Part shown: one piece after another, positions 10,520 to 28,363 of the stretch
Position numbering within the stretch: the stretch's first letter is position 1
How the letters are laid out: the number at the start of each line of letters is the position of its first letter
Assembly: GCF_003350405.1 (NCBI RefSeq)
Contig: NZ_QQAW01000001.1
Location: forward strand, 248,001 to 312,000
DNA: 64,000 nt
Reading direction: 5' to 3'
Source: Gluconacetobacter liquefaciens
GTDB lineage: Bacteria > Pseudomonadota > Alphaproteobacteria > Acetobacterales > Acetobacteraceae
Notes under the pieces: generated by a model
The model's database searches: none
Seen by the model: the letters and a program-made list of their open reading frames with translations, nothing else
Told to the model about the DNA's origin: nothing
Translations under genes and position numbers: made by a program

Positions 10520-10533
10520 TAACCAGTTAGTTC
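10520..10533 (+). promoter_or_regulatory. Operator copy A, TAACCA-GT-TAGTTC
   Basis: Imperfect 6-2-6 palindrome ending 21 bases before the acyl-CoA dehydrogenase start codon. It matches 12 of 14 bases of copy C read in the direction of transcription (28037-28050). Its position over the probable promoter or 5' leader fits repression by the TetR protein encoded at 28364. Confidence 0.6.
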
Positions 10534-10554
10534 ATATGGAACGGGAATGCCGGA

Positions 10555-11697
10555 ATGTATCTGAACGAGACACAGGAACAGGTGCGCGAGACCGTTCAGG
10601 CTTTCGCCGACGACGTCATCCGCCCCGCCGCCGAGGCGCTGGACCGCGAGGAGCGGTTTCCTTCCGAAATCTACGACGAAATGGCCAAGCTGGGGCTGTT
10701 CGGCATCGGTGTTCCCGAAGCCTTGGGTGGCCCCGGTTTCGATACGCTGACCTATGCGGTGGTGATGGAGGAACTGTCGCGCGGCTATGCCAGCGTGGCC
10801 GACCAGTGCGGGCTGGTGGAGCTGATTTCCACCCTGCTGGTGCGCCATGGCACGGAACGGCAGCAGGCGATGCTGCCCGATATCCTGGGCATGCGGCGCA
10901 AGGTGGCATACTGCATCACCGAGCCCGAGGCCGGCACCGATGTGTCGGGCATCCGCACCACCGCCGAGAAGGATGGCGAGGGCTGGGTGCTGAATGGCGG
11001 CAAGATCTGGATCCATAACGCGCCCGTGGCCGATACCGGCTTCGTGCTGGCCCGCACCGACCGGGACGCGGGCACGCGGGGCATGTCGATCTTTATCGTC
11101 GACCTGCACGCGCGGGGGGTCGAGCGTGGCCCCAAGGAACACAAGATGGGGCAGCGGGCCAGCCAGGTGGGCGGGCTGAATTTCTCCGACGTGCGGCTGG
11201 GGCGCGATGCGCTGCTGGGCGAGGCCGGGCGCGGGTTCCACATGATGATGAGCGTGCTGGACAAGGGGCGCGTGGGCATTGCCGCCCTGGCCGTGGGCAT
11301 TGCCCAGGCGGGGCTGGAAGCGGCCGTGGATTATGCCGGCACCCGCAAGCAGTTCGGCAAGCAGATCTCGGACTTTCAGGGTGTGCAGTGGCTGCTGGCC
11401 GACATGGCGAAGGATATCGAGGCGGCGCGGCTGCTGGTGCATTCCGCCGCCGTGAAGATCGATCGCGGGCTGGATGCCACGCGCTCGTGCTCCATGGCCA
11501 AATGCTTTGCCGGCGATACCGCCGTGGCGCGCACGGCGGATGCGGTGCAGGTGTTCGGCGGCTCGGGCTATATCCGGGGGTTCGAGGTCGAGCGGCTGTA
11601 TCGCGATGCCAAGATCACGCAGATCTATGAAGGTACCAACCAGATCCAGCGCATGATCATCGCCCGCGAGCTGATGAAGAAGGGCGCGCGGTCATGA
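10555..11697 (+). CDS. Acyl-CoA dehydrogenase
   Basis: FAD enzyme that introduces an alpha-beta double bond into an acyl-CoA and passes electrons to ETF. 380 residues, the usual size for short/branched-chain members. CITEPEAGTDVSG is the first family signature. The second, around FGGSGYIRGFEVERLYRDAK, leads into IYEGTNQIQRM, whose Glu is at the catalytic-base position of short-chain enzymes. The gene opens an operon that continues through SDR, DUF993, TIM-barrel and etfBA, so its electron acceptor is encoded with it. Operator copy A lies 21 bases upstream. Its acyl-CoA substrate is unknown. Confidence 0.92.
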   Translation: MYLNETQEQVRETVQAFADDVIRPAAEALDREERFPSEIYDEMAKLGLFGIGVPEALGGPGFDTLTYAVVMEELSRGYASVADQCGLVELISTLLVRHGTERQQAMLPDILGMRRKVAYCITEPEAGTDVSGIRTTAEKDGEGWVLNGGKIWIHNAPVADTGFVLARTDRDAGTRGMSIFIVDLHARGVERGPKEHKMGQRASQVGGLNFSDVRLGRDALLGEAGRGFHMMMSVLDKGRVGIAALAVGIAQAGLEAAVDYAGTRKQFGKQISDFQGVQWLLADMAKDIEAARLLVHSAAVKIDRGLDATRSCSMAKCFAGDTAVARTADAVQVFGGSGYIRGFEVERLYRDAKITQIYEGTNQIQRMIIARELMKKGARS

Positions 11698-12461
11698 GAC
11701 AGGTCGCGCTCGTAACCGGCTCTTCGCGCGGGATCGGGCTGGCGGCGGCCGAGGCGCTGGCGCGGGCCGGGTTTGCCGTGGCGATCAACGGGCCGGTCGC
11801 CGATGCCGAACTGCATGCGGCGGTGGCGCGGATCGAGGCGCTGGGCGTGCCGGTGATGGCCGCGCCCTTCGATGTGGGCGACACCGCCGCGCATGCGCCC
11901 TGGCTGGCACGGATCGAGGACACGCTGGGGCCGCTGACGACGCTGGTGAACAATGCGGGCGTCGGCGTGCTGCATCGGGGCGATCTGCTGGAGGTGGGGG
12001 AGGAAAGCTGGGACCGCTGCCTGACGATCAATGCGCGGGCGGTGTTCTTTCTGTCGCAGGCGTTCGCGCGGCGGTTACTGGCGCGGGCGCGGCCGGAGGG
12101 GCTGTTTCATGCCGTGGTGAACGTCACCTCGTCCAACGCCTCGGCCGTTGCCGTGCAGCGGGCGGAATATTGCGTGTCGAAAGCCGCCGCCGCGATGGTG
12201 TCGAAGGCGCTGGCGGTGCGGCTGGGGCCGGAGAATATCGCCGTCTATGACGTGCAGCCCGGCCTGATCGCCACCGACATGACGGCGCCGGTGATCGAAG
12301 CCTATCGCAGGCGCGCGGCCGAGGGCCTGACGCTGATGCCGCGCGTGGGGGAAGCCCACGAGATGGGAACCATCATCGCGACCCTCGCCGCCGGAAAACT
12401 TCCTTACACCACCGGGCAGGTGATTTCGGCTGATGCCGGAATGCTCGTCCCCCGTTTTTGA
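11694..12461 (+). CDS. Short-chain dehydrogenase/reductase (3-oxoacyl-ACP reductase-like)
   Basis: 255 residues, classical SDR. TGSSRGIG is the cofactor-binding glycine motif, NNAG follows near residue 84, the catalytic Ser is in VTSSNAS and the Tyr/Lys pair in YCVSKAAA. The start overlaps the upstream acyl-CoA dehydrogenase stop (ATGA). FabG-like enzymes annotated with a trailing number usually act on sugars, hydroxy acids or hydroxyacyl-CoAs. Given the operon, a hydroxyacyl-CoA or a sugar-derived hydroxyl is plausible, but this is inference. Confidence 0.87.
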   Translation: MRQVALVTGSSRGIGLAAAEALARAGFAVAINGPVADAELHAAVARIEALGVPVMAAPFDVGDTAAHAPWLARIEDTLGPLTTLVNNAGVGVLHRGDLLEVGEESWDRCLTINARAVFFLSQAFARRLLARARPEGLFHAVVNVTSSNASAVAVQRAEYCVSKAAAAMVSKALAVRLGPENIAVYDVQPGLIATDMTAPVIEAYRRRAAEGLTLMPRVGEAHEMGTIIATLAAGKLPYTTGQVISADAGMLVPRF

Positions 12462-12463
12462 GA

Positions 12464-13618
12464 ATGGCCATGAAAATCGCACTTCCTGACGAAACGGGCC
12501 GGATGACGGATTACGTCCTGACCGGAACGCCCCTGCCGCATACGGTGCTGCCGCGCGACCCCGCGCGGATCGTCTATTCGGCGGCCCATGTGGTGGCCGA
12601 TCCGTTCAGTGCCGCCGATCCGTCCGGACAGGCCGCCGTGGATTGGGAGAAGACCTTGGAATTCCGCCGCTATCTGGCCGGGCTGGGGCTGGGCATCGCC
12701 GAGGCCATGGATACCGCGCAGCGCGGCATGGGGATGGACTGGCCGCGCTCGCTGGAACTGATCCGGCGGACGCGGGCGGAACTGCCGGATGCGCTGATCG
12801 GCAATGGCTGCGGGACGGATCATCTGGACCCGGCGCATGTCACGTCGGTCGATCAGGTGATCGGCGCCTATATGGAGCAGGTCGAGGCCATCCAGGCCGT
12901 CGGTGGGCGGCTGATCCTGATGGCCAGCCGGGCGCTGGTGCAGGTGGCGAAGAGCGGCAGGGATTACGAGCGCGTCTATCGCACGGTGCTGGCCGGCTGC
13001 GAGCAGAAGGTGATCCTGCACTGGCTGGGCGAGATGTTCGACCCGGCGTTGGACGGGTATTGGGGCAGCCGGGACTTCGATGTGGCGCTGGAGACGGTGC
13101 TGGCGATCATCGAGGAAAACCGGGCGCGCATCGACGGGATCAAGATCTCGCTGCTGGACAAGGAGAAGGAGATCATCCTGCGTCGCCGCCTGCCGGAAGG
13201 CGTGCGGATGTATACCGGTGACGACTTCAATTATCCCGAACTGATCGCGGGGGACGGGCAGGGGTTCAGCCATGCCCTGCTGGGGATTTTCGACCCGCTG
13301 GCGGCGGCGGCCTCCTACGCCGTGGCGAAGCTGGGCGAGGGCGACGTGGCGGCGTTCCATGCGGCGCTGGACCCGACCGTGCCGCTGGCGCGGCTGATCT
13401 TTCGGGCGCCGACACGGTTTTACAAGACCGGCGTGGTGTTCCTGGCGTGGCTGAACGGGTTTCAGGACCATTTCATCATGGTGAACGGGGCGCAGGCCAT
13501 GCGGCCGTTGCCGTATTTCACCGGCATTTTCCGCCTGGCCGATGGGTGCGGGCTGCTGCGCGACCCGGAGCGCGCCGCCAGCCGCATGAAGTCGCTGCTT
13601 GCGCTCTATGGGGCATGA
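12464..13618 (+). CDS. DUF993 protein, dihydrodipicolinate synthase-like aldolase fold
   Basis: 384 residues. I recognise it as a DUF993/DHDPS-like protein of unknown reaction. The segment IDGIKISLLDKEKE places a Lys where DHDPS-family class I aldolases form the Schiff base, and MYTGDDFNYPELIAGDGQGFSH resembles the late barrel strands. ATG at 12464 or 12470 are both possible starts, and ribosome-binding signals are weak; the upstream SDR stop is at 12461. It is followed directly by a TIM-barrel isomerase, a pairing I recall from other sugar-catabolic clusters. A retro-aldol or lyase step on a keto-sugar or keto-acid is inferred. Confidence 0.8.
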   Translation: MAMKIALPDETGRMTDYVLTGTPLPHTVLPRDPARIVYSAAHVVADPFSAADPSGQAAVDWEKTLEFRRYLAGLGLGIAEAMDTAQRGMGMDWPRSLELIRRTRAELPDALIGNGCGTDHLDPAHVTSVDQVIGAYMEQVEAIQAVGGRLILMASRALVQVAKSGRDYERVYRTVLAGCEQKVILHWLGEMFDPALDGYWGSRDFDVALETVLAIIEENRARIDGIKISLLDKEKEIILRRRLPEGVRMYTGDDFNYPELIAGDGQGFSHALLGIFDPLAAAASYAVAKLGEGDVAAFHAALDPTVPLARLIFRAPTRFYKTGVVFLAWLNGFQDHFIMVNGAQAMRPLPYFTGIFRLADGCGLLRDPERAASRMKSLLALYGA

Positions 13619-13619
13619 G

Positions 13620-14477
13620 ATGCGCGATTTCCGTCACGACCATTCGGCGCTGGCCCTGAATACCGCGACGCTCGGCCATAATATCGCGGGCGCCGGGGCG
13701 GGATGGTCGCCCGAGCGGACCATCGATGCCTGTGCCGGGCGGGGGATCGGCGGCATCGTGTTCTGGCGGCGGGAGATCGCGGGGCGGGCGGCGGCCATCG
13801 GGGCGCGGGCCAGGGCGGCCGGGGTGACGGTCGTGGGGCTGTGCCGTGCGCCTTTTCTGGTCGGGCCGCTGGCGCCGGCCGGGGTGGCGGAGATTTGCGA
13901 TGATTTCCGGCTGGCGATCGACCAGGCCGCCGAACTGGGGGCGCCGGTGCTGACGATCGTGACCGGTGGGATCGCGGTCGGGACCAAGGGGGTGCGCGAC
14001 AGCCTGAACATCGTGGCCGACCGGGTGGCGGAGGTTCTGCCCCATGCCGCCGCCTGCGGCGTGAGGCTGGCGCTGGAGCCGCTGCACCCGGTCTATGGCG
14101 GTGATCGGTCGTGCCTGATGACGGTGCGGGATGCGCTGGATCTCTGCGACCGGATCGGCGACGCGCATCTCGGCGTGGCGGTCGATGTCTATCATGTGTG
14201 GTGGGATACCGACCTGCCGGCGCAACTGGCGCGGGCCGGGCGCCGGATCTTCGGCTTTCATCTGTGCGACTGGCTGGCGCGGACGACGGATGTGCTGCTG
14301 GACCGGGGGATGATGGGCGATGGCGTGGCCGACCTGCGCGGCCTGCGCGCGTCGGTCGAGGAAGCCGGATATGGGGGCTTCTGCGAGGTAGAAATCTTCT
14401 CCGCGAACAATTGGTGGAAGCGTGACCCTGCGGAGGTCCTGGACGTGATGGTCGAACGCTTCCGGTCCGTTTGTTGA
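13620..14477 (+). CDS. Sugar phosphate isomerase/epimerase-like TIM-barrel protein
   Basis: 285 residues of the xylose isomerase-like/AP endonuclease 2 superfamily. The expected metal ligands are visible in order: Glu in LALEPLHP, Asp and His in [10 protein letters not shown], His in FGFHLCDW and Glu in CEVEIFS. A divalent metal and a keto-aldose isomerisation, epimerisation or related lyase step are likely. The ATG at 13620 is one base after the DUF993 stop; an in-frame ATG at 13608 would overlap it. Tight coupling to DUF993 suggests the two act on successive intermediates. Confidence 0.82.
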
Positions 14478-14493: not shown

Positions 14494-15255
14494 ATGAAGA
14501 TTCTTGTCCCTGTCAAACGGGTGATCGACTACAACGTGAAGGTGCGGGTGCGGACCGATGGCTCGGGCGTCGAACTGGCGAACGTGAAGATGTCGATGAA
14601 TCCGTTCGACGAGATTGCGGTGGAGGAAGCCGTGCGCCTGAAGGAGAAGGGCGTGGCGTCCGAGATCGTCGTCGTGTCGATCGGTGTGCAGCAGGCGAAG
14701 GATACGCTGCGCACGGCGCTGGCCATGGGGGCCGACCGGGCGATCCTGGTCGATGCCACGGCGGACGTGAACCAGGATATCGAACCGCTGGCCGTGGCGC
14801 GGCTGCTGTCGCGGATCGTGGAGGCGGAGCGGCCCGACCTGGTGCTTGCCGGCAAGCAGGCCATTGATAACGACATGAACGCCACCGGGCAGATGCTGGC
14901 GGGGCTGCTGGGCTGGGGGCAGGCGACCTTTGCCTCGAAGATCGAGATTGCCGACGGCCGGGCCGTGGTGACGCGCGAGGTCGATGGCGGGTTGCAGACC
15001 ATCGGCGTGACGCTGCCGGCGGTCGTGACCGTCGATCTGCGCCTGAACGAGCCGCGCTATGTGGCGCTGCCCAGCATCATGAAAGCCAAGAAGAAGCCGC
15101 TGGAAGAACGCACGGCGGCGGAGCTGGATGTGGATGTGACCCCACGGCTGAAGATTACGCGTACGGTCGAGCCGACGCAGCGTGTGGCAGGCGTACGCGT
15201 GGCGTCGGTCGATGAACTGATTGCGAAACTGAAGAGCGAGGCGGGAGTACTCTGA
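14494..15255 (+). CDS. etfB: Electron transfer flavoprotein beta subunit
   Basis: 253 residues, typical length. It starts [19 protein letters not shown], continues with [17 protein letters not shown], and carries the AMP-binding signature region around [22 protein letters not shown], including the recognition loop. With EtfA it forms the soluble carrier that takes electrons from acyl-CoA dehydrogenases to ETF-quinone oxidoreductase in the membrane. Its stop overlaps the etfA start by a base. Its place behind an acyl-CoA dehydrogenase in the same operon suggests it may be dedicated to this pathway, but it could also be the cell's only ETF. Confidence 0.94.
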
Positions 15256-16184
15256 TGACTGTTCTGCTGCTGGCCGAAACCAACCAGGGCCGTCTGGCCA
15301 CCGATGCGGTCGCGCGGACGCTGTCGGCTGTCGCACCCCTGGGGGATGTGCATGTGCTGATCGCCGCCGGCGAAGGGGCGGAAGAGGCGGCGAAGGAGGC
15401 TGCCGCACTCAAGGGTGTTTCGAAAGTGCTGCTGGCCGAGAGCGAGAGCCTGCGCCATGGGCTGGCGGAGCCGGCGGCGGCGCTAGTGGTGTCGCTGGCC
15501 GCGGGTTATCGCCATATCGCGGCCCCTGCGACGGCCTTTGCGCGGAACATCCTGCCGCGTGTGGCCGCCCTGCTGAATGTCATGGTGCTGTCGGACGTGA
15601 TCGCCGTGCATGGCGAGGATTCGTTCGATCGCCCCGTCTATGCGGGCAATGCGGTGCAGACGGTGCAATCGACCGATCCTGTCGCGGTCTTTACCGTGCG
15701 CACCTCGGCGTTCGGCGCGGTGGGGGCGCAGGAGCCGGCGCCGGTTGAGAACGTGGCGGCGGTGGCCGATCCGGGGCTTTCGTCCTGGATCGAGGATGCG
15801 GCCGTGGTCTCGGAACGGCCGGAACTGGCGTCGGCGCGTGTCGTCGTGTCCGGCGGGCGGGGTGTGGGGTCGAAAGAGAATTTCGAGACGATCATTCAAC
15901 TGGCCGACAGGCTGGGAGCGGCCGTGGGGGCCAGCCGTGCGGCGGTCGATCTGGGATATGCGCCCAATGACTGGCAGGTGGGGCAGACCGGCAAGGTGGT
16001 GGCGCCCGACCTGTATATCGCGGTGGGTATCTCGGGCGCGATCCAGCATCTGGCGGGAATGAAGGATTCGAAAGTGATCGTCGCCATCAACAAGGATGAG
16101 GATGCGCCGATCTTCAGGGTGGCGGATTATGCCCTGGTGGGGGACCTGTTCTCGATCGTGCCCGAACTGGCGGGGAAACTTTAG
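15255..16184 (+). CDS. etfA: Electron transfer flavoprotein alpha subunit
   Basis: 309 residues. The C-terminal FAD domain is complete: [66 protein letters not shown] and [18 protein letters not shown]. The N-terminal half forms domain I with EtfB. It is the last gene of the acyl-CoA dehydrogenase operon and is followed at once by a hairpin (16183-16222) whose left arm overlaps the stop codon. Confidence 0.95.
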
Positions 16185-16222: not shown

Positions 16223-16316
16223 GGCCGGGATCTGTGACCGGTCATGATTGCGCCGCGCAGCGGGGCGGTCATGCCCGGACCATGCGGACTGCACGATGTG
16301 CCGGTTGGTATTCGGG

Positions 16317-17801
16317 ATGAAGAACGGTATGGCGCGGTGGGTGGTGTATTCTCTGCTGGCCATGTTCGGGCTGGCGGTGTCGAGTGCCGGAGGACGAGCG
16401 GAATCCGCGCTGGAAAAACCTGCTGGAAGGACAAGCCGGGTAGCGCTTCTGACGGGGAGAGGCGCCGGGCAGGACAGGGTTGCGGCGCCTGTGCGGGAGC
16501 GCGAGCGTACGGGGATGGCGGCGAGCGCGCTGGGATCGACCTGGCCGGAAGTACGGGTGGTGCCGGAGGATGACCGGATTCTCGGCGCCATCGGCGGGCT
16601 TCGCACCCGGCTGGAGCAGCATGGCTTTACCTTTACCCTGACCTACCTGACCGAAAGCCTTGGCGTGGTGGCCGGCGGACGGCGGCGGGGGTTCGATTAC
16701 ACGCATCAGATCGTGATGGGGGGCGATCTGGATTTTGAAAAGATGGCGCGCATCAGGGGGCTGTCTTTTCATATGCTGGGGATTCAGCGGGCCGGTCGCA
16801 ATGTGGCGACGGATTACATGGGGGTGACGCCCCTGATCCAGCCGCAGGAAGATTATGGCGTGGGCGGCGGTGTGCTTTACAAGCTGGTCTATATGTATGC
16901 CGAACAGACCTTCCTGAACAGGACAGTGACGGTGGATTTCGGCCGCATGCCGGCCAACATGAAATTCGGCACGTCCTATCTGGGCTGTTACGCACTGAAC
17001 ATGATTACCTGCGCCCATCCGTCCGGGCTTTCGAATGCCACCAAATGGCGGTCGTGGCCGTTTTCGCAATGGGGGATGCTGGCGCGGGTCAAGCCGGGGC
17101 ACAGGCTTTATGCGCAGGCGGGACTGTTCGAGTCCTCGCCGACCGAAGGTGGGCGGGCGGGGTTCGATTTCTCTTTTGCACAGAACGGGTTTGTCGTTCC
17201 CATGGAGGTCGGGTGGGAGCCTGTGCTGGGGGCGGGAAAGATGCCGGGGCATTACAAGCTGGGAGGCTATGTCGACAGTTCGGACCATCCCGACCCGTTC
17301 ATTTCGACCGATGGCCGGCCGAAGCTGGTTTCCGGTCTGCCGGGGCGGGTCGAGCGCCAGCGCGGGGCCTGGTATGTCGGGGGCGACCAGATGGTCTACC
17401 GGTACGGACGCGCCGCCAACCAGGGCATTATCCTGTACGGGATCGCCGGGTGGAATGTGGGGGCGTCGCTGCCCAACCGGAGCCAGTATACGCTCGGGAT
17501 CATTTCGCAGGGGATGATTCCAGGCCGGATCACGGATGCTGTTTCGTTTTTCTGGACGCGGCAGAGGGTGAATCCCGCGATAACATCGCAGCAGACGATG
17601 CAGATGGAAGAGGGGCTGCCGCTGCTCAACGGTGTGCGGTCGCCGCAAACATCGTTTCATGTTCTGGAACTGACCTACACGGCCTTCGTCAGTCGCGGGA
17701 TCAAGCTGCTGCCCGATATGCAATATATCATTCGCCCGGATGCGAATCACGTTTATCCGAATGCCCTGCTGATGGGCTTCAGGCTTCTTGCCCAATTGTG
17801 A
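16317..17801 (+). CDS. Carbohydrate porin, OprB-like (second copy)
   Basis: 494 residues from the ATG at 16317. A signal peptide (ARWVVYSLLAMFGLAVS, cleavage near GGRAES) is followed by a low-complexity linker and a porin domain with DYTHQIVMGGDLDFEK, VDFGRMPANMKFG and QSQYTLG-type strands, as in OprB barrels. It ends in Leu rather than Phe. ATGs at 16296 and 16329 are alternative starts. It sits between the etf operon and an MFS transporter plus aldo-keto reductase on the same strand, suggesting the outer-membrane entry step for the island's substrate. Resemblance to the porin at 4972 is in type, not close identity. Confidence 0.83.
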   Translation: MKNGMARWVVYSLLAMFGLAVSSAGGRAESALEKPAGRTSRVALLTGRGAGQDRVAAPVRERERTGMAASALGSTWPEVRVVPEDDRILGAIGGLRTRLEQHGFTFTLTYLTESLGVVAGGRRRGFDYTHQIVMGGDLDFEKMARIRGLSFHMLGIQRAGRNVATDYMGVTPLIQPQEDYGVGGGVLYKLVYMYAEQTFLNRTVTVDFGRMPANMKFGTSYLGCYALNMITCAHPSGLSNATKWRSWPFSQWGMLARVKPGHRLYAQAGLFESSPTEGGRAGFDFSFAQNGFVVPMEVGWEPVLGAGKMPGHYKLGGYVDSSDHPDPFISTDGRPKLVSGLPGRVERQRGAWYVGGDQMVYRYGRAANQGIILYGIAGWNVGASLPNRSQYTLGIISQGMIPGRITDAVSFFWTRQRVNPAITSQQTMQMEEGLPLLNGVRSPQTSFHVLELTYTAFVSRGIKLLPDMQYIIRPDANHVYPNALLMGFRLLAQL

Positions 17802-18025
17802 AGAATGTGCCCCCATAAAGGGAAGATGGACGAAGACGGGATTTTCGTTCTGGCCCGACAACCGTGCGACGGGCCATGTCGTTATCCCTTGCACCATGTT
17901 GTATCGGGGTGCTGCGCGTGGCGTGGCGGGCCGGCACGATCGGGGGCAGGAGCGGACATCGGGGTGTATGCCCGCCGGCTTCGAGAGTCTCCTTCGCGAC
18001 AAGAAAAACAAGAACGGAGGGCGTT

Positions 18026-19354
18026 GTGATCGGAAAATATCGCTGGCTCATCTGCGGCCTGCTGTTTGCCGCGACGACCATCAATTATGTCGACCGGCAG
18101 GTGCTGAGCCTGCTGAAGCCCCTGCTTGAACACCGGTTCGGCTGGTCGGAAAAGGACTACAGTTATCTCGTGATCGTTTTCCAGGCCTGCTATGCCCTGG
18201 GATTCGTCTCGTTCGGCAAGCTGATCGACCGGCTGGGTACGCGGCTGGGCTATGCGCTGTGCATGGCGGTGTGGAGCCTGGCCTCCATCGGGCATGCGCT
18301 GGTCGGGGGGATGGCGAGCTTCGCTGTGGTGCGCGGGATGCTGGGATTTGGCGAGGCCGGAAATTTTCCCTCGGCGCTCAAATCCGTCTCGGAATGGTTT
18401 CCGGCGCGCGAGCGTTCGCTGGCGGTGGGGATCGTGACCGCCGGCACCAGCATCGGCGCGATCATGGCGCCTGCGACCGTGCCGTGGCTGGCGGCGACGT
18501 ATGGCTGGCAGGCGGCCTTTATCGTCACCGGCCTTTCCGGCTTCGGCTGGCTGGGTCTGTGGTTCTACCTGTATCGCCTGCCCGAGGAGACGCGCGCGCT
18601 GTCGCCGGACGAACTGCGCTATATCCGCCAGGACAGGCGGGACAGCGACGGGCCGGAATTCAGGGGGCGCTGGATCGACCTGCTGAAGGTGCGGGCGACC
18701 TGGGCGTTTGCCGTGGGCAAGTTCATGACCGACCCGATCTGGTTCTTTATCCTGTTCTGGCTGCCCTCCTATTTTTCGGACCGGTATCACCTCAACCTGA
18801 AACATCTGGGCCTGCCGCTGATGGCGGTCTATTGCGCGACCTCGGTGGGCAGCGTGGGTGGCGGCTGGCTGTCGTCCTTTCTGATCGGTCGCGGGTGGAG
18901 CGTGATGGCGGCCCGCCGCATCACCATGCTGATCATGGCCGTGATGGTCGTGCCCCTGGCGTTTTCGGCGCAGATCCATGGAATGTGGATGATGGTGGGG
19001 CTGCTCAGCCTGGCTGCCGCCGCCCATCAGGGCTGGTCGGCGAATATCTATTCGATTCCGGCGGATCATTTTCCCAAGGAGATGATTGCCTCGGTGCAGG
19101 GGATCGGCGGGCTGGCAGGGTCGATCGGCGGCATGATCTTTCCGCTTGGCGTCGGGGTGCTGCTGGATCACTACCGCCAGGCGGGCCATATCGACATGGG
19201 GTACGCCATTCTGTTCGCGGTGTGCGGGAGTGCGTACATTCTCGCGTGGATCGTCATCCAGATCCTGAACGGGCAGGGGCTGTTTCCCCGGAACTGCCTT
19301 GCCGGATGGCGGAGAAGAATGCCGCGACGGCGCCATGCCGTCTCCGGCGCGTAG
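18026..19354 (+). CDS. MFS transporter, anion:cation symporter type (hexuronate/glucarate-like)
   Basis: 442 residues, 12 predicted membrane helices. The start has NYVDRQVLSLLKPLLE after the first helix, a motif of ExuT/GudP-type sugar-acid symporters. Also seen are FGKLIDRLGTRLGY (the MFS loop 2-3 motif) and RGMLGFGEAGNFPSALKSV in helix 4. The GTG at 18026 is chosen because GGAGG ends 5 bases before it; an upstream in-frame ATG would add an unrelated 54-residue leader. A uronate, aldonate or other organic acid is the likely cargo, which gives the island two importers with the ABC system. Confidence 0.87.
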   Translation: MIGKYRWLICGLLFAATTINYVDRQVLSLLKPLLEHRFGWSEKDYSYLVIVFQACYALGFVSFGKLIDRLGTRLGYALCMAVWSLASIGHALVGGMASFAVVRGMLGFGEAGNFPSALKSVSEWFPARERSLAVGIVTAGTSIGAIMAPATVPWLAATYGWQAAFIVTGLSGFGWLGLWFYLYRLPEETRALSPDELRYIRQDRRDSDGPEFRGRWIDLLKVRATWAFAVGKFMTDPIWFFILFWLPSYFSDRYHLNLKHLGLPLMAVYCATSVGSVGGGWLSSFLIGRGWSVMAARRITMLIMAVMVVPLAFSAQIHGMWMMVGLLSLAAAAHQGWSANIYSIPADHFPKEMIASVQGIGGLAGSIGGMIFPLGVGVLLDHYRQAGHIDMGYAILFAVCGSAYILAWIVIQILNGQGLFPRNCLAGWRRRMPRRRHAVSGA

Positions 19355-20498: not shown

Positions 20499-20512
20499 TA
20501 ACTATCTAGTTC
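20499..20512 (+). promoter_or_regulatory. Operator copy B, TAACTA-TC-TAGTTC
   Basis: Imperfect 6-2-6 palindrome 82 bases upstream of the ABC substrate-binding protein start. Read on the opposite strand it matches copy C at 12 of 14 positions. The region around it is AT-rich, as expected for a promoter. Confidence 0.6.
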
Positions 20513-20594: not shown

Positions 20595-21707
20595 ATGTCC
20601 TTCATCAAGCAATATATCGAGCAGCAGACGATCAATCGCCGCAACCTGCTTCTGCTCTCGGCCTACGGGTTGGGCGGCATGGCGGCGGCGGCCTCCTTCC
20701 GGCCCGGTTTCGCCCGCGCGGCGGGGCAGGACCCCAAGATCGCGTGGAGCTATCGCGACCGGACCAATCCGTACTGGAATTCGATCGTCTCGGGTGGCGA
20801 AGGCTTCGTGGAAAGCCTCGGCCTGCCCAAGAGCGCGCTGCTGAACCTGATCAATGGCGGGTCGAGCGAGAAATCCCTTTCCGATATCAAGGCGCTGCTC
20901 TCGCGCTATGGCAGTGGGGTGGCGCTGGCCGCCGACCCCAACGACATGCCCAACTGCCGGCCGGTGGTGGAGGCGGTGGTCGGTGCGGGGGCGTATGTCT
21001 CGACGATCTGGAACAAGACCGACGACCTGCATCCGTGGGATTTCGGCGACCATTATGTTTCGCACATGACATGGTCGGATGTCGGGCCCTCGGAACAGAC
21101 GGCGCGGATTCTGTTCGATGCCATGGGCGGCAAGGGCGGGGTGGTGCATCTGGGTGGCATCGCGTCGAACAATCCGGCGATCGAACGGCTGGCCGGGTTG
21201 AAGAATGCGCTGAAGAGTTACCCGAATGTCGAATTGCTGGCCGTGCAGGCCGCGGACTGGGATACCCAGAAGGCCAACCAGGTGATGTCCGGTTTTCTGA
21301 CCCGCTATGGCGACGCGATCAAGGGCGTGCATTGCGCCAGCGATACCATGGCCTATGGCGTGATCGAGGCGCTGCGGGCCGAAGGCATCGAGAACATGCC
21401 GGTGGTGTCGTATGACGGCAACCCGCAAGCGGTGGACCTGGTGGCGCAGGGCAAGATTCTGGCGACCGTGTTCACGAACCCTTACTGGGGCGGGGGCATT
21501 ACGGCGGCGCTGGCCTATTACGCGGCGACCGGTTTTTTCAAACCCTCTGCCGAACCCAAGGAACATCGGGAATTCTATGGGCCGACCGTGCTGATTACCA
21601 CCAAGGATGCCCGGGATTTCAAGGCGAAATACATCGACAGCAACCCGAAATATGACTGGAAGGATTTCTGGGGGCTGAGCAAGGGCCAGATCCAGTACCG
21701 GTCATAA
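20595..21707 (+). CDS. Sugar ABC transporter substrate-binding protein
   Basis: 370 residues, periplasmic binding protein of the ribose/xylose type (Peripla_BP_4 fold). The N-terminus has an Arg-Arg pair in TINRRNLLLLSAYGLGG followed by a hydrophobic stretch and an Ala-X-Ala-like site, suggesting export by Tat, or Sec with a twin-Arg-like leader. The mature part begins near QDPKIAWSYRDRTNPYWNS. PVVSYDGNPQAVDLVAQGKI is the usual last-lobe segment. It is the first gene of a complete importer operon under operator copy B. The ligand is unknown; sugars or polyols are typical for the family. Confidence 0.9.
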   Translation: MSFIKQYIEQQTINRRNLLLLSAYGLGGMAAAASFRPGFARAAGQDPKIAWSYRDRTNPYWNSIVSGGEGFVESLGLPKSALLNLINGGSSEKSLSDIKALLSRYGSGVALAADPNDMPNCRPVVEAVVGAGAYVSTIWNKTDDLHPWDFGDHYVSHMTWSDVGPSEQTARILFDAMGGKGGVVHLGGIASNNPAIERLAGLKNALKSYPNVELLAVQAADWDTQKANQVMSGFLTRYGDAIKGVHCASDTMAYGVIEALRAEGIENMPVVSYDGNPQAVDLVAQGKILATVFTNPYWGGGITAALAYYAATGFFKPSAEPKEHREFYGPTVLITTKDARDFKAKYIDSNPKYDWKDFWGLSKGQIQYRS

Positions 21708-21766
21708 GAGTCCCGGATTTTTCCCGGTTGTCCTGATGCGTCGTTTCCTGAAAACGAGATGCAACC

Positions 21767-22732
21767 ATGAAACATGGTCTTGTGATGGACAATATCAGAA
21801 AATGGGTGCCGTTTCTGGTGTTGCTGGTGCTTGTATTGTTCTTTGCGGCAGTGAATCCCCATTTCCTGTCGCTGCGGAATTTTGCCCGGATCGCCGTGTC
21901 GTCCTCGCCGGCGCTGATGGTGGCGGTGGGGGCGACCTTCGTCATCCTGATGGGCTCGATCGACCTGTCGATGGAAGGCACCGTGGCGGTGTGCGCGGTG
22001 GTCTTCGCCATGCTGCTGAACCGGCTGGGCGGGTCGCTGGCCCATATGGGGTGGTTGGCCATTCCGGGCGCGATGATTGCGGGGGGCGTGCTGGGGGCCG
22101 TCAATGGCCTGATCCATGTGCGGCTGCGGATTCCCTCGTTCATGGCCAGCCTGTCCATGGGGTTTGTCGGTGTCGGCCTGTCGCTGCTGATGACGGGGGG
22201 CAATCGTATCCTGATCGGCGACCCACTGTTCCGCTCGCTGCTGACCGTGCGGATCATGAGTTTTCCGCTGATGGCGTATGCGGCGCTGGGCGGGTTGCTG
22301 GTGGCCTGGTTCATTCAGGGCCGGACGACCATCGGCCGGAATTTCTATGCCATCGGCGGCGGGGAGGATCTGGCACGGGCATCGGGGCTGAATGTCGGCC
22401 GGGTGCGGGTGATCGGCTTTGTCCTCGCGGGTGTCTTCTTCGCGCTGGGGGCGGTCCTGGCGGTGGCGCGGCTGGGGATTGCGGAAACCGAGACCGGGAC
22501 CGGGTTCATGTTCCTCTCCATTACCTCGGTGGTGGTGGGGGGCACGGCGCTGGCCGGGGGATCGGGCGGTGTGTGGAACACGCTGGTCGGTGTGCTGATC
22601 GTGAATGTCATCGGCAACGGCATGGTGGTGGTGGGACTGCCTGACTACCTCCAGGACGGCGTGCTCGGGCTGCTCGTGATCACGGCGGTGTATCTGTCCA
22701 TGGATCGCCGCGGGCTCTCCTTCGCAAGGTAA
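21767..22732 (+). CDS. Sugar ABC transporter permease (RbsC-like)
   Basis: 321 residues with about 8-10 hydrophobic segments, in the BPD_transp_2 family. GATFVILMGSIDLSMEGTVAV near residue 55 and the EAA-type segment ARASGLNVGRVRVIGFVLAG near residue 205 are characteristic. An ATG at 21779 is an alternative start. Two permeases flank the ATPase gene, so the membrane part of this importer is probably a heterodimer. Confidence 0.9.
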   Translation: MKHGLVMDNIRKWVPFLVLLVLVLFFAAVNPHFLSLRNFARIAVSSSPALMVAVGATFVILMGSIDLSMEGTVAVCAVVFAMLLNRLGGSLAHMGWLAIPGAMIAGGVLGAVNGLIHVRLRIPSFMASLSMGFVGVGLSLLMTGGNRILIGDPLFRSLLTVRIMSFPLMAYAALGGLLVAWFIQGRTTIGRNFYAIGGGEDLARASGLNVGRVRVIGFVLAGVFFALGAVLAVARLGIAETETGTGFMFLSITSVVVGGTALAGGSGGVWNTLVGVLIVNVIGNGMVVVGLPDYLQDGVLGLLVITAVYLSMDRRGLSFAR

Positions 22733-22738
22733 TGTGCC

Positions 22739-24244
22739 ATGTTCGAATTGCGGAACGTCGAAAAGCGTTATCCGGGCGTCCATGTTCTCAAGGGGGTCGA
22801 TCTGGCGATCGCGCCCGGCGAGATCATCGGGCTGGTCGGCGAGAACGGGGCGGGGAAATCCACCCTGATGAAGATCATCTACGGCGCCGTGCAGCCGGAT
22901 GCCGGCAGCGTCCTGATCGACGGGGCGCCCGTCCATTTCCGCAGTCCGCGCGACGCGATGAAGATGGGCATCGGCATGGTGTACCAGGAGCAGTCGCTGA
23001 TTCCGAACCTGAGTGTGATGGAAAACATCTTTCTGGGGTTCGAGCAGCAGTTCGTGCATCTGGGCGTGATCCAGTGGCGCAGGATGGCGCAGGCGGCGCG
23101 GGTGCAGTTGCGCAAGGTGAAGCTGGATATCGACCCCGGCATGATCACCTCGCGCCTGACCTTCGCCCAGCGCCAGCTTGTGGAACTGGCGAAGGTGCTG
23201 GCGCTGGAGGAGCGCGTCGAGGGGCATCTGGTGATCCTGCTTGACGAGCCGACATCGGTGCTGTCGAAGGATGAAATCGACCTGCTGTTCGGCCTGGTGC
23301 GGGAATTGCGGCGGCGGGCCTCGTTCATCTTCGTGTCGCATCGGCTGGACGAGATCATCGCGCTGTCGGACCGCATCTATGTGCTGAAGGACGGCATCGT
23401 GGTCGATGTGCTCGCGGCGAAGGACGCGCGGGTGGAGACCATCCAGAAGAAGATGGTCGGGCGGGATATCGCGCTGGAATATTATCGCGAGAACCGGCAG
23501 GTGCCCTTCGATGCGGGCAGGGTGCTGCTGGAACTGGACCATGTCGTGCTGCCGGGCCGGCGCCATGAGGTTTCGCTGACGCTGCATGCGGGCGAGGTGC
23601 TGGCGCTGGTGGGTGTGGAAGGCGCCGGGCGCGAGGGAATCCTGCGCGCGATCTTCGGGTTGAAGGCGCCGGAAAGAGGCACGATCCGCATCCGGGGCGA
23701 GGCCATGCGGACCTTCAGCGCCTCGAACAGTGTCGCGCATGGTGTCGGGTATATTCCGCGCGAGCGGAAGATCGAAGGCATCGCCAGCGGCATGAATGTC
23801 TACGAGAACATGACGCTGTCGCAGATGGGGCGGTATTCCCGTGGCGGGGTGCTGGATATTCCCGCCGAGCGGGCGCTGGCGCGGGACTGGATCAAGCGGC
23901 TGTCGATCAAGGTGCCGTCGGAAGAATCCGACTGCGGAAACCTCTCGGGTGGCAACCAGCAGAAAGTGGTTCTGGCCAAGTGGCGCAGCGGTGGGTCGGA
24001 CATCATCCTGCTCGATCATCCGACGCGGGGCCTCGATATCGGCGCGAAGGAAGATGTCTACGACATGGTGCGGGACATGTCGGCCGACGGGGTCGGGGTC
24101 ATTCTGGTCGCGGATACATTGGAGGAGGCCATCGGCCTCAGTCACACCATTGCTGTCATCAAGGATGGAGAGATCAGGACATGGTTCAATTGTCAGCCGG
24201 GCGCAAAGCCTTCTCTCTACGACCTGATCCATCACATGGTATGA
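22739..24244 (+). CDS. Sugar ABC transporter ATPase, two nucleotide-binding domains (RbsA-like)
   Basis: 501 residues, two fused NBDs. NBD1 has a full Walker A (GENGAGKST, residues 34-42) and Walker B (VILLDEPTS, about 164-172), but its signature region is degenerate (LTFAQRQLVELAK). NBD2 has a degenerate Walker A (GVEGAGREG), a good signature (LSGGNQQKVVLAKW) and a Walker B with His in place of the catalytic Glu (ILLDHPTRGLDIG). One composite site should therefore be active and the other inactive. A degenerate second Walker A is normal in RbsA-type proteins; the His is not. It starts 6 bases after the first permease and overlaps the second by ATGA. Confidence 0.92.
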   Translation: MFELRNVEKRYPGVHVLKGVDLAIAPGEIIGLVGENGAGKSTLMKIIYGAVQPDAGSVLIDGAPVHFRSPRDAMKMGIGMVYQEQSLIPNLSVMENIFLGFEQQFVHLGVIQWRRMAQAARVQLRKVKLDIDPGMITSRLTFAQRQLVELAKVLALEERVEGHLVILLDEPTSVLSKDEIDLLFGLVRELRRRASFIFVSHRLDEIIALSDRIYVLKDGIVVDVLAAKDARVETIQKKMVGRDIALEYYRENRQVPFDAGRVLLELDHVVLPGRRHEVSLTLHAGEVLALVGVEGAGREGILRAIFGLKAPERGTIRIRGEAMRTFSASNSVAHGVGYIPRERKIEGIASGMNVYENMTLSQMGRYSRGGVLDIPAERALARDWIKRLSIKVPSEESDCGNLSGGNQQKVVLAKWRSGGSDIILLDHPTRGLDIGAKEDVYDMVRDMSADGVGVILVADTLEEAIGLSHTIAVIKDGEIRTWFNCQPGAKPSLYDLIHHMV

Positions 24245-25197
24245 CCGACCGGGTGGCGCTGGCCGAGCGGCTGCGGCGGCATTTTCCGTGGATCACGCTG
24301 ACCACCCTGACCATTCTGGTCGGCTTCACGGATGTGAATTTCCTGCGGCCGGACAATCTGCTGAACCTGGCGGCGGATATCGTGCCGCTGCTGATCATGG
24401 CCATCGGCATGACGCTGGTGATCTATATCGGCAGCATCGACCTGTCGTCGCAGTCGATCGCCAACATGGCGACGGTGCTGGCGACGATCGCGCTGCCTTC
24501 GGCGGGTGTCGGGGCCGGGGTGCTGGTGCTGGCCGTCGGGCTGGCGTTCGGTGCGGTGTCGGGGGTGGTGACCACGCGGCTGAAGGTGCCGTCCTTCATT
24601 TCCACGCTGGCCGTGGGAGGCATTGCGCTGTCGGTGGGGCAGTTTGCCTCCGGCCAGCAGGCGCTGCACATGGACGCCGGGCAGCGGCTTCATGCCTTCG
24701 GCTGGATGGTGGGGCGCACCGCCGGCATTCCGCATGAACTGGTCGTGGCGCTGCTGCTGGTGGTGGTGGCGTGGTTCATCCAGGGGCGGATGACGGCCGG
24801 GCGGACCTTCAAGGCGATCGGGGCCGGCGAGCCGGTGGCCGTGTCCTCGGGCATCCGGGTGGAACGCTACAAGATCCTGGCCTTTGCGCTGTCCGGCATG
24901 TTCGCGGCTGCTGCGGGGCTGGTCTTCTCGGTCAAGCTGTCGGGCGGGTCGCCTACGCTGGCGGAAGGGTTCCTGCTGCCGGCCATCGTCGCGGTGCTGG
25001 TGGGGGGCACGCCGCTGACCGGGGGCGTGGGCGGTGTGATCAATACCGTGATCGGCACCATGATCGTGGCGGTGATCCGGGCCAGCATGCTCTATCTGAA
25101 CATTCCCGCCATGGGGCAGCAGATTTTCTTCGGCCTCGTGCTGATCGTGGCGATCGCCACGACCATCGACCGCTCGAAAATGCGGATCGTCAAATAA
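24241..25197 (+). CDS. Sugar ABC transporter permease, second subunit
   Basis: 318 residues, RbsC-like. IAIGMTLVIYIGSIDLSSQS is the family's early helix motif, with AVSSGIRVERYKILAFALSG as the cytoplasmic coupling segment. The ATG at 24241 overlaps the ATPase stop; longer upstream frames lie inside the ATPase gene and are not real. It is clearly divergent in sequence from the first permease, supporting a heterodimeric channel. Confidence 0.9.
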   Translation: MTDRVALAERLRRHFPWITLTTLTILVGFTDVNFLRPDNLLNLAADIVPLLIMAIGMTLVIYIGSIDLSSQSIANMATVLATIALPSAGVGAGVLVLAVGLAFGAVSGVVTTRLKVPSFISTLAVGGIALSVGQFASGQQALHMDAGQRLHAFGWMVGRTAGIPHELVVALLLVVVAWFIQGRMTAGRTFKAIGAGEPVAVSSGIRVERYKILAFALSGMFAAAAGLVFSVKLSGGSPTLAEGFLLPAIVAVLVGGTPLTGGVGGVINTVIGTMIVAVIRASMLYLNIPAMGQQIFFGLVLIVAIATTIDRSKMRIVK

Positions 25198-25232: not shown

Positions 25233-26267
25233 ATGGACACTATGGAAGCGGCGGTGCTGATGGCACCGGGGCAGTTCGAAGTAACGCGCGTGCCGGTGCC
25301 TGCCGTCGGGCCGGACGATGTGCTGGTGCGGGTGGATCGCTGCGGCATCTGCGGGACGGATGTGCATATCTTCCAGGGCCATTATGCGGCGGACCGGCTG
25401 CCCTTTATTCCGGGGCATGAATTCACCGGCACGCTCGCGCGGCTCGGCGAGCGGGTCAGCGGGCTGGCGGTGGGCCAGCGGGTGGTGGCCGATATCAATA
25501 TCGGCTGCGGGCACTGCTATTTCTGCCGCCGGAACGAGATTCTGAACTGCGCGGAGATGCGACAGGTCGGCATTCATCGCGATGGCGCGTTTGCCGAATA
25601 TGTCGCGGTGCCGGCGCGACAGATCATTGTGGCGCCCGAGGACGTGGCGCCGGAGGTGCTGGCGCTGACCGAGCCGGTGGCCTGTGTCGTGCGGGCGGCG
25701 CGCAAGGCGGGGGCAGGGTTCGCGCAGTCGGTGGTGGTGCTGGGGGCCGGGCCGATCGGCAACCTGCATATCCAGATGATGCGCCTGGTCGGGGCGGCGC
25801 CGATCATTGCCGTCGAACTGTCGCCCGAGCGGGCGGAACTGGCGGCGCGTGGGGGGGCGGATGCGGTGGTGACCCAGCCTGAGCGGGCGCTGGAGGTGGT
25901 GCGCTCCATGACCGGGGGGCGCGGGGCGGATATCGTGATCGAGAGCATCGGCCTGCCCGCGCTCTATGCGCAGGCGTTCGAGATGATCCGGCCGGGGGGG
26001 CATGTGGCGGCGTTCGGCATTACCGGGCCGGACGATACGATCCCGCTGCGGCTGCTGGACGTGGTGCTGAAGGAAAACGCGATCAAGGGATCGGTGGCCG
26101 GCATGGGCGAGGACATGCACGATGCGCTGGCCCTGCTGACGCACGGGCGGTTTCAGGTGGAGCCCTTTACCGGCAGCGTCGTGCCGCTGCGTGCGATCCA
26201 GTCGGCGTTCGATACGTTGCGGGATCGGCCGGGGGTGTTGAAGGTGCAGATCAGTCCGGGGGGATAG
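25233..26267 (+). CDS. Zinc-dependent alcohol/polyol dehydrogenase (MDR family)
   Basis: 344 residues. Catalytic zinc ligands are Cys in DRCGICGTDVH, His-Glu in GHEFTG and Glu in LTEPVACV. The structural zinc cysteines lie in NIGCGHCYFCRRNEILNC. The NAD fold has VVLGAGPIGNLH. This is the sorbitol/threonine dehydrogenase branch. It follows the second permease by 35 bases and should be cotranscribed with the importer, so it probably oxidises a hydroxyl on the imported compound. The start at 25233 is followed by a second ATG at 25242. A run of hairpins follows the gene. Confidence 0.9.
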   Translation: MDTMEAAVLMAPGQFEVTRVPVPAVGPDDVLVRVDRCGICGTDVHIFQGHYAADRLPFIPGHEFTGTLARLGERVSGLAVGQRVVADINIGCGHCYFCRRNEILNCAEMRQVGIHRDGAFAEYVAVPARQIIVAPEDVAPEVLALTEPVACVVRAARKAGAGFAQSVVVLGAGPIGNLHIQMMRLVGAAPIIAVELSPERAELAARGGADAVVTQPERALEVVRSMTGGRGADIVIESIGLPALYAQAFEMIRPGGHVAAFGITGPDDTIPLRLLDVVLKENAIKGSVAGMGEDMHDALALLTHGRFQVEPFTGSVVPLRAIQSAFDTLRDRPGVLKVQISPGG

Positions 26268-26272
26268 TCTTC

Positions 26273-26426: not shown

Positions 26427-26431
26427 GGTGT

Positions 26432-28012
26432 TCAGGCCGCCGCCCGACGGGGTGGGGTGACGTGGGGGTGGAACAGGCCGGCGTCCATGAGGCGCAGGGT
26501 GGGCGAGATCAGGAGCGGGGCCCGGGCCTGGTCGAGGATCTGGGTCTGGAGGTCGATGCCCGGTGCGATTTCGGTGACCATCAGGCCGTCGGGGGTGAGT
26601 TGCATGACGCAGCGTTCGGTAACGTAGAGGATTTCCTGTCCCTGGGCGATGGCGCGGGGGCCGGAGAAGGAGATCTGCTCTAGCTCATCGACGATTTTCG
26701 CGATCTTGCCTTCGCGCTCGATGATCAGGCGGCCATCGGCGATGGAGAATTTGGCGCCGGCGTTGAAATAGCCCGAGAAAATGATGCGCCGGGCGCGGGA
26801 CGTGATGTCCACGAAGCCGCCCGAGCCGGCGGTGACGTGGGGCTGGGCCGAGAGCTTGGAGACGTTGACCGAGCCGTTGGGGTGGATCTGGAGGAAGGAG
26901 AGCAGGGAGACGTCGAAGCCGCCGGCCTGGAAATAGGTGAACTGGTGCGGCGAGGCGACGAAGGCCTCGGCGTTGGCGGCGCAGCCGAACTTGAAGTCGA
27001 GCAGCGGGATGCCGCCGACGGCGCCCTGTTCGATCACCCAGGTGACGTCGCCGTGGCGGCCTTCCTCCAGCAGGATGCGCGGCACGTTGGCCGAGATGCC
27101 GAAGCCGATATTGACCGCCCAGCCGGGCCGCAATTCCCGCGCGACGCGCCGGGCCATGACCTTGGCGACGTTGAATTCGGGCAGGGCGAAGCTGTCGAGG
27201 GGCTTGAAGACCTCGCCCGAGATCGCCGGGTCGTATTGGGTGGCGGTGGTCTGGAGCTGGTCGGGTGTTTCGACGACGTAATCGACCAGGATGCCGGGTA
27301 CGCGCACGTCGTGGGGGCGCAGGGTGCCGGACTGGGCGACGCGGCGGACCTGGGCGATGACGATGCCGCCGTTATTATGGGCGGCGAGGGCGAGTTCCAT
27401 CGCGCCCAGATAGGCGCCTTCGTCCTCGAAGGTGAGGTTGCCGCGTTCGTCGCCGGTGGTGGCGCGGATGATGGCCACGGTGGGGCGGATGGCGGGGAAA
27501 TAGAGCCATTCCTCGCCCATGAAGTCGATCCTGCTGACGACGGGCTCGGCCTGGGCGGCCTCGTTCATCGCGCAGCCTTCCTGCGTGGGGTCGACGAAGG
27601 TGTCGAGGCCCACTTTCGTCATTACGCCCGGTCGTTTGGCGGCGCCTTCGCGCAGCATGTCGAAGATGATGCCGCTGGGCACGTTGTAGGCCGCGACCTC
27701 GTTGCGCCTGACCATCTGCCGGATGAGCGGCGGTTCGGCCGAGGAAGGGCCGGAGGGGTAGGAGCCGCCGATGATCCGGCTGATCATGCCCGGCTGGGCC
27801 AGGTGGTCCACGCCCCTGGTGCCGAACATGTCGCCGGCGGCGATGGGATGGATGGTCGTGAGGTTGCGCGGGGCGCCTTCGGTGCGGAAACGCGCGCCCA
27901 GGGCTGCGAGGATGGCGTCGGGGCAGCACAGGCCGCTCGATGAATTCACGGCGACGATGGCGCCATCTTCAACCAGCGATGCGACGTTCGTGGCCGTTCT
28001 GATTTTCGACAT
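26432..28012 (-). CDS. CoA-transferase, acetate/propionate CoA-transferase (YdiF) type
   Basis: 526 residues, family I CoA-transferase with both halves in one chain. The second half has TWVIEQGAVGGIP, where Glu 328 is the likely residue that carries the CoA ester. NIGFGISANVPRIL precedes it, and PHVTAGSGGFVDIT follows. Such enzymes activate an organic acid by swapping CoA from acetyl-CoA or another thioester. Operator copy C lies 25 bases upstream of its start. It converges on the ABC/ADH operon and is divergent from tetR. In the pathway it would supply the acyl-CoA for the dehydrogenase at 10555 (inference). Confidence 0.88.
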   Translation of the reverse strand: MSKIRTATNVASLVEDGAIVAVNSSSGLCCPDAILAALGARFRTEGAPRNLTTIHPIAAGDMFGTRGVDHLAQPGMISRIIGGSYPSGPSSAEPPLIRQMVRRNEVAAYNVPSGIIFDMLREGAAKRPGVMTKVGLDTFVDPTQEGCAMNEAAQAEPVVSRIDFMGEEWLYFPAIRPTVAIIRATTGDERGNLTFEDEGAYLGAMELALAAHNNGGIVIAQVRRVAQSGTLRPHDVRVPGILVDYVVETPDQLQTTATQYDPAISGEVFKPLDSFALPEFNVAKVMARRVARELRPGWAVNIGFGISANVPRILLEEGRHGDVTWVIEQGAVGGIPLLDFKFGCAANAEAFVASPHQFTYFQAGGFDVSLLSFLQIHPNGSVNVSKLSAQPHVTAGSGGFVDITSRARRIIFSGYFNAGAKFSIADGRLIIEREGKIAKIVDELEQISFSGPRAIAQGQEILYVTERCVMQLTPDGLMVTEIAPGIDLQTQILDQARAPLLISPTLRLMDAGLFHPHVTPPRRAAA

Positions 28013-28363
28013 GCCGGATTCTCTTCTGGCTAAATGTAACTATCTGGTTAGATATATGATCGGGCGTGGCGGCCGCAAGGGAAGAAGGCGGGGTGCGCCA
28101 TCACACTGGCGTTTGCCGGGTGGCATTTGCCGGCGGCCTGTGATCCGAATGAGGGTATGGACCGGGAGGGTGGCCGTGGAACCTGTTGTGCGTGCGCTCT
28201 TTTTCGCGCGGGTGGCCGGGATGGCGGTGGTTTGCCGCCGCCGGCTGGTGAGGGTGGCAAAAGCCTTGTGAGCGCTTCTGCCTGGGGCTAAATTTGCGGC
28301 CATATCTGGTCGCGTCCATTCGACGGCCGCACTGCTGGTCGCCGCCGCGACAAGGATATCCGT
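28013..28363. other. Divergent region between CoA-transferase and tetR
   Basis: 351 bases without a convincing gene. It holds operator copy C at the CoA-transferase end and GC-rich sequence elsewhere. I saw no second operator near the tetR start, so autoregulation, if it occurs, would act from 314 bases away or through a site I did not recognise. Confidence 0.5.
28037..28050 (-). promoter_or_regulatory. Operator copy C, TAACCA-GA-TAGTTA (minus strand)
   Basis: The most symmetrical of the three copies: reading the minus strand, TAACCA and TAGTTA form a 6-2-6 palindrome with one mismatch. Its centre is about 31 bases before the CoA-transferase start codon, inside an AT-rich patch. It lies beside the tetR gene. 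Confidence 0.62.

Follow-up and report, generated by a model that had tools for sequence, protein, structure and literature searches.

Predicted operator sites of the locus

Which regulator, if any, joins the sugar or polyol uptake genes and the coenzyme A (CoA)-linked catabolic genes that lie together in a 64-kb stretch of Gluconacetobacter liquefaciens (contig NZ_QQAW01000001.1, positions 248,001 to 312,000; hereafter the window)? A first-pass annotation had pointed to a 14-bp imperfect palindrome before the acyl-CoA dehydrogenase (ACAD) operon, the ATP-binding cassette (ABC) importer operon and the CoA-transferase gene, and had proposed that one TetR protein controls all three. Our data argue that the TetR protein encoded at 28364-29068 is very probably the local repressor of the whole locus, with predicted operators at four operon heads. 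The one-regulon proposal gained support from comparative evidence, namely a motif discovered de novo, its placement at first genes, and its agreement with the recognition helix. The identity, placement and conservation of the operator and its agreement with the helix were computed here, and from these we infer binding, repression and induction.

With up to 3 mismatches allowed, the consensus of the first-pass annotation matched the window 6 times, where 0.21 were expected, and 0 of 100 shuffles reached 6. This count is circular because the consensus was built from the sites themselves, and an independent motif test was therefore made. The window TetR protein served as the query for ortholog loci. 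Of 409 relatives, the 80 best, with identities of 58-93%, were used: acetic acid bacteria (Gluconacetobacter, Acetobacter, Komagataeibacter, Novacetimonas) supplied 13 of them, and Rhizobiales, Rhodobacterales and other groups supplied 67. An expectation-maximization (EM) search with 40 random seeds, to which the window contributed no sequence, was performed on the tetR upstream regions of the 67 loci from outside the acetic acid bacteria and yielded the motif AGTAACTAGTTAGT (AagAAGTAACTAGTTAGTGCgT in its 22-bp form). A search for perfect 6-2-6 palindromes alone did not recover the motif in the orthologs, because one half-site is mostly TAGTGC outside acetic acid bacteria; dyad and EM analyses resolved the difficulty.

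When the window was scanned with the ortholog 14-mer model, the top three places were 10518 (22.5 bits), 28035 (12.6 bits) and 20497 (10.4 bits), which are the three sites first reported, and the next distinct place (5.3 bits) was a fourth site. Only four places in the window exceeded 4 bits with the ortholog 22-mer model: the three sites and 10249-10270 on the minus strand. A softened 22-mer scored the four sites at 22.6, 18.6, 13.6 and 12.4 bits, against a maximum of 10.3 bits in the reversed window. Across the 80 loci (1.48 Mb), on part of which it had been trained, this softened model found 133 matches above 11 bits, and the reversed control gave 9. The near matches of the first consensus at 28732, 35115 and 38435 were rejected; only 35115 exceeded 4 bits with the 14-mer model (4.5 bits), and none did with the 22-mer.

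All three 14-mers were present at the positions reported earlier (Table 1). The reported gaps of 21 and 82 bases between operator and gene start were borne out (starts 10555 and 20595, both plus strand), and the third gap is 24 bases instead of 25 (start 28012, minus strand). Each pair of sites had been described as sharing 12 of 14 bases; two pairs did so by eye, and the pair of sites 1 and 2 shared 11 of 14. The TetR gene is indeed the only one of its family in the window, into which 1 of the genome's 22 TetR_N matches falls. The statement that the operon of aldehyde dehydrogenase (ALDH) and GMC oxidoreductase has no clear copy was not upheld, as a candidate operator is located at 10251-10264 on the minus strand.

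This fourth site lies between the divergent ALDH (start 9951, minus strand) and ACAD genes, 300 bp from the ALDH start. Among acetic acid bacteria, 7 of 10 ACAD starts displayed a pair of sites, one at -35 to -37 and one on the opposite strand at -244 to -329 (the window's genome, G001, G003, G147, G085, G009 and G002; the G003 stretch ends before the ALDH gene itself). Neither exact site was found at the ACAD start of G008. The Acetobacter loci L083 and L084, near which no ALDH was found, had the ACAD site only. We regard the ALDH-GMC-porin operon as a probable member of the regulon, and infer that the fourth site would control ALDH from 300 bp away.

Placement of the operator at first genes

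Upstream counts covered 17 further stretches in addition to the window and the 80 loci, using homologs of at least 50% identity and counting identical upstream regions once. The exact pattern TAACYRNNYRGTKM (6-2-6, 14 bp) within 200 bp was found upstream of three first genes, the importer binding protein (SBP; 60/65), ACAD (23/25) and the CoA-transferase (25/30), as well as small aldo/keto reductases (AKR; 11/11), larger AKR (10/22), VOC (9/19) and tetR (58/85). No exact operator preceded the internal importer genes (first permease 0/65, ATPase 0/66, second permease 0/64, alcohol dehydrogenase (ADH) 0/62), the other internal genes (SDR 0/19, DUF993 0/18, TIM barrel 0/22, EtfB 0/18, EtfA 0/17), or the genes for enoyl-CoA hydratase (0/10) and glycerate kinase (0/7). 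Thirty permuted patterns gave means of 0 to 0.13 per gene group, and the largest single value was 3.

Recognition helix and distant TetR proteins

The window TetR scored 44.2 bits with TetR_N (cut-off 24) and 119.7 bits with TetR_C_29 (cut-off 26.2), and its AlphaFold model (mean pLDDT 83.2) displayed helices throughout. All 37 close orthologs chosen for alignment share helix residues 70-78 (NKRMIYHYF) without variation. At E <= 1e-10, the window's genome contains a single match of this TetR subfamily.

A distant set comprised 21 TetR matches with loci (38-50% identity); 27 further, mostly weaker matches without a locus were left uncounted, one of them in genome G049 beside DUF993. Nine of the 21 genes have the exact palindrome TAACYRNNYRGTTA no more than 400 bp away, compared with a mean of 0.04 and a maximum of 2 for 100 permuted patterns; allowing one mismatch left the count at 9 of 21, with permuted patterns averaging 0.3 and reaching at most 9. 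The palindrome was present at all nine distant loci that had DUF993 within 5 kb on the same contig and at none of the 12 others, of which three (G040, G104, G076) have DUF993 on another contig and may or may not be linked to it, and two (G037, G049) have it farther than 5 kb away. All nine palindrome-bearing TetRs carry NKRM at the start of the recognition helix. A TetR gene likewise sits next to the set in two loci that were reached via DUF993, not via TetR.

Two genomes, G004 and G012 (entries L062 (G004), L029 and L030), had no DUF993 at E <= 1e-40 and kept tetR, with KKRM in the recognition helix. In G004, the permease and ALDH genes are both truncated and directly adjoin each other, the remaining importer genes and the ACAD operon were not found in the 40 kb fetched, and the CoA-transferase promoter keeps TAACCAGATAGTTT; the 40 kb fetched from G012 yielded tetR alone. 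In these two genomes, the pattern would fit relaxed selection after loss of the pathway.

Promoter geometry and proposed mode of action

A TTGA/TTGC box was found 27-29 nt before the operator in 18 of 23 ACAD promoters, 28-33 nt before it in 23 of 25 CoA-transferase promoters, and 23-24 nt before it in 52 of 60 SBP promoters, where any other distance occurred at most 6 times. This conserved -35-like box at a fixed distance places the operator over the predicted -10 region at three promoter types, and from this geometry the ACAD, importer and CoA-transferase promoters are likely repressed by steric block of RNA polymerase.

In the mechanism that we propose, a TetR dimer would bind one 14-bp operator at each of the four operon heads, and the repressor bound on the -10 regions of the three promoters would block RNA polymerase. 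Release of TetR would come from an inducer derived from the imported compound, the inducer perhaps being a small acid or its CoA thioester, and would open together uptake, oxidation (ADH, ALDH, GMC and AKR) and CoA-linked breakdown by the CoA-transferase, ACAD with electron transfer flavoprotein, the SDR and the putative DUF993 lyase.

Distribution of the motif in whole genomes

A whole-genome motif search was performed with the refined pattern GTAACYRNNYRGTKM. It gave 6 exact places in the window's 4.17-Mb genome, 4 of them in the locus, and the backward control pattern gave 3. Genome G001 had exactly 4 places, all in the locus. The search was extended to 19 genomes, chosen because tetR is present: that of the window, those of two congeners and 16 from which loci had been drawn. 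Of 105 distinct exact places, 76 lay within 50 kb of tetR, a density of 40 per Mb inside this distance versus 0.30 per Mb outside. The both-strand total was 121 versus 100 for the backward control, so the position of the sites, not their number, is informative. The off-cluster match C2:81622 was rejected; by eye it lies in AT-rich DNA, inside a reading frame, and it is absent from the GTAACYRNNYRGTKM places.

Alternative explanations

Several observations weigh against a single TetR switch for the entire locus. The exact site was upstream of GMC in only 5 of 77 cases and of ALDH in 13 of 58. The low ALDH count fits the position of ALDH and GMC, which in most relatives come after ADH within the importer operon; of the stretches in which a site precedes GMC, at least two (L220, L221) contain a second GMC paralog, about 50-53% identical. 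When one mismatch was allowed in the upstream counts, permuted patterns averaged up to 2.2 and a single pattern reached 16. In 27 of 85 cases the tetR upstream region had no exact site, and in the window 313 bp separate the tetR start from the closest site, so autoregulation has no clear support here; in many relatives a site lies between tetR and SBP. Four of the 80 loci (L076, L079, L098, L107) were without a match above 11 bits, and the distant TetRs L033 and L038 carry NKRM without an exact palindrome; in the 4 kb around the L033 gene there was no exact palindrome, and the sole one-mismatch place was about 2 kb off. Two exact places in the window's genome lie off the locus, C6:80066 inside a reading frame and C13:47306 between frames of at least 120 codons. 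By eye, the fourth site has no canonical -35 spacing at its 300-bp distance, and the small AKR promoters of relatives lack a fixed -35 distance.

The distance of the fourth site from its gene and the irregular small AKR promoters, together with LuxR of Vibrio alginolyticus, a TetR-like protein that both represses and activates according to PMC9736018, would suit a TetR that acts as an activator or that represses only some of the operons. We consider this unlikely, since at three promoter types the operator overlaps the -10 and is preceded by a conserved -35-like box, which is the geometry of a blocker. It is also improbable, and slightly more so, that the sites are operators of a different regulator whose gene lies elsewhere in the genome. 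The genome does hold the other TetR_N matches counted above, most loci were fetched via tetR so that its presence there is by construction, and the systematic regulator search at the loci covered TetR only. Against another regulator stand the invariant helix of the 37 orthologs, the way in which the palindrome of distant loci tracks both DUF993 linkage and the NKRM helix, the TetR genes at the two DUF993-reached loci, and the single match of the subfamily in the genome. Chance AT-rich palindromes could be proposed from the two off-locus matches, the three matches of the backward pattern and a 19-genome total not far above its control. This explanation is hardly credible and was taken as refuted: the motif was discovered independently, it separates first genes from internal genes, most of its exact places cluster around tetR, and the fourth site is conserved in relatives. 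A local TetR repressor acting at all four operon heads is the explanation that we retain. Place C13:47306 (L216 4306) may be a distant fifth site or chance.

Comparison with known regulators

The first-pass annotation had likened the sites to RutR-type operators. RutR, the Escherichia coli pyrimidine-use repressor, shares the TetR fold (RutR chains at Foldseek ranks 2-7, TM 0.68-0.70 by query length), and its operator is described as palindromic and about 16 bp long in PMC10891134. The window TetR differs in scoring 46.2 bits against a RutR equivalog cut-off of 368, in its TetR_C_29 C-terminal domain, and in having no pyrimidine-use gene among the locus genes scanned. RutR is thus a structural neighbour and not the family of this protein.

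Bacillus FadR and MbdR are likewise TetR proteins of CoA-linked catabolism, and their structures surfaced in the structure searches. The effector of MbdR is a CoA thioester, and MbdR is grouped with Bacillus FadR as a CoA-thioester-sensing TetR repressor. The window TetR differs in scoring 33.2 bits against the FadR equivalog cut-off of 200 and in the sugar importer of its locus. The TetR-type regulator PA3973 of Pseudomonas aeruginosa controls an ACAD operon through sites over the predicted -10, as reported in PMC9736018; it differs in its motif, SAAGRNMTGAACG, and its more than 300 ChIP-seq sites, whereas the window system has another motif and a predicted one-locus regulon. A TetR local regulon is a known kind of system, of which this locus is a fresh example. 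In the open literature searched (subscription papers being outside its scope and long result lists covered in part), no paper naming DUF993 and no publication on this regulon or DUF993 locus was found; among the matches listed for the operator strings, there was no TetR-operator title.

Genes of the locus and the predicted pathway

Table 1. Predicted features of the locus in the window. Operator strings TAACCAGTTAGTTC, TAACTATCTAGTTC and TAACTATCTGGTTA are given on the plus strand.
Feature	Position	Strand	Evidence or remark
Second porin-like gene behind GMC	4972-6558	-	OprB label by resemblance only
GMC oxidoreductase	6857-8455	-	start inferred
ALDH, first gene of ALDH-GMC-porin operon	8452-9951	-	start inferred
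Fourth operator, facing ALDH-GMC-porin operon	10251-10264	-	TAACCAAACGGTGC; second-best 22-mer match in window
Proposed ACAD promoter, by eye	-35 10493-10498; -10 10516-10521	+	TTGATC, spacer 17, TATGTA; -10 runs into operator
Operator of ACAD operon	10520-10533	+	TAACCAGTTAGTTC; motif scan, promoter geometry
ACAD	10555-11697	+	
SDR, 3-ketoacyl-ACP reductase subfamily PRK12745	11694-12461	+	340 bits, cut-off 250
DUF993	12458-13618	+	conserved Lys229; named dihydrodipicolinate synthase family protein in annotated relatives
Xylose-isomerase-like TIM barrel	13599-14477	+	
Electron transfer flavoprotein	14494-16184	+	EtfB 14494-15255, EtfA 15255-16184
OprB porin	16248-17801	+	
MFS transporter	17864-19354	+	nearest NCBIfam model D-galactonate transporter, below cut-off
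AKR	19415-20434	+	
Proposed importer promoter, by eye	-35 20477-20482; -10 20500-20505	+	TTGATT, spacer 17, AACTAT; -10 inside operator
Operator of ABC importer operon	20499-20512	+	TAACTATCTAGTTC; motif scan, upstream counts, promoter geometry
CUT2-like sugar ABC importer	20595-24244	+	binding protein 20595-21707, permease 21767-22732, ATPase 22739-24244
Second permease	24241-25197	+	start inferred from conserved reading frame
Zinc ADH	25233-26267	+	start inferred; 24771 start looks like false extension
CoA-transferase, FadX/YdiF-like	26432-28012	-	
Operator of CoA-transferase gene	28037-28050	-	TAACTATCTGGTTA; overlaps proposed -10 region of gene
TetR repressor, TetR_N + TetR_C_29, 234 aa	28364-29068	+	recognition helix ANKRMIYHYF; Pfam, alignment, AlphaFold

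Genes of this catabolic pathway, in which the likely central enzyme is still annotated as a DUF, can be listed objectively by means of the operator. The pathway boundary, missing genes and a substrate biosensor become testable in laboratory strains, Sinorhizobium meliloti among them, because the main locus promoters share one predicted switch in the relatives examined. By a modest margin over even, we favour the view that the regulon delimits an undescribed CoA-dependent sugar/polyol degradation pathway across Alphaproteobacteria, in which DUF993 would be a class I lyase cleaving a C-C bond and the TetR_C_29 clade with TAACYRNNYRGTTA would be the dedicated sensor.

Lys229 of DUF993 (in GIKIS in the window protein) was conserved in at least 36 of 37 sequences and resembles the lysine motif with which enzymes of the dihydrodipicolinate synthase family form a Schiff base, which suggests a class I (Schiff-base) lyase. 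One solved DUF993 homolog was found, 4dnh, itself called uncharacterized. A retro-aldol role yielding a C3 fragment, which would fit the glycerate kinase of relatives, is a guess. Substrate guesses from gene content (deoxy-sugars, cyclitols, branched sugars) were weighed and not adopted. The sugar-binding protein matched the solved structure 2rjo (E 2.2e-82) far better than ribose/allose binding proteins, and a ligand in 2rjo, if any, could hint at the substrate.

The annotated loci of Sinorhizobium meliloti pSymA, Paracoccus kondratievae and 'Roseateles' XES5 plasmids hold the core set with enoyl-CoA hydratase and glycerate kinase, and operator matches were located at their importer/tetR, CoA-transferase, AKR and ACAD promoters; the Paracoccus stretch has one extra 12.1-bit match among siderophore genes. 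The S. meliloti and P. kondratievae loci resemble the window in core genes and in operators at the corresponding promoters, and differ in the two extra genes and in that no OprB is listed in their stretches. Relatives of the S. meliloti enoyl-CoA hydratase in the window's genome were at most 37% identical, and no relative of its glycerate kinase was found in that genome, a weak negative from a search without a positive control; both steps are left unassigned there. In plasmid pAO1 of Paenarthrobacter nicotinovorans (L189), DUF993 occurs with GMC, ALDH, a Gfo/Idh oxidoreductase, a sugar ABC importer and glycerate kinase, and no operator-model match above 10 bits was found in that stretch. The plasmid record labelled Roseateles sp. 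XES5 (UNVERIFIED_ORG; L187) displayed a Rhizobiales-like version of the locus, and its label may be wrong.

Relatives of the porin-like gene behind GMC were present in six fetched acetic-acid-bacterial stretches. In the window and G003, but not in G001 (L055), the OprB porin and MFS genes (16248-19354 in the window) separate EtfA from AKR. A DHA2-type efflux MFS gene at 29096-30604, convergent to tetR and with the operator upstream in 0 of 3 cases, was also present in G001 and G003.

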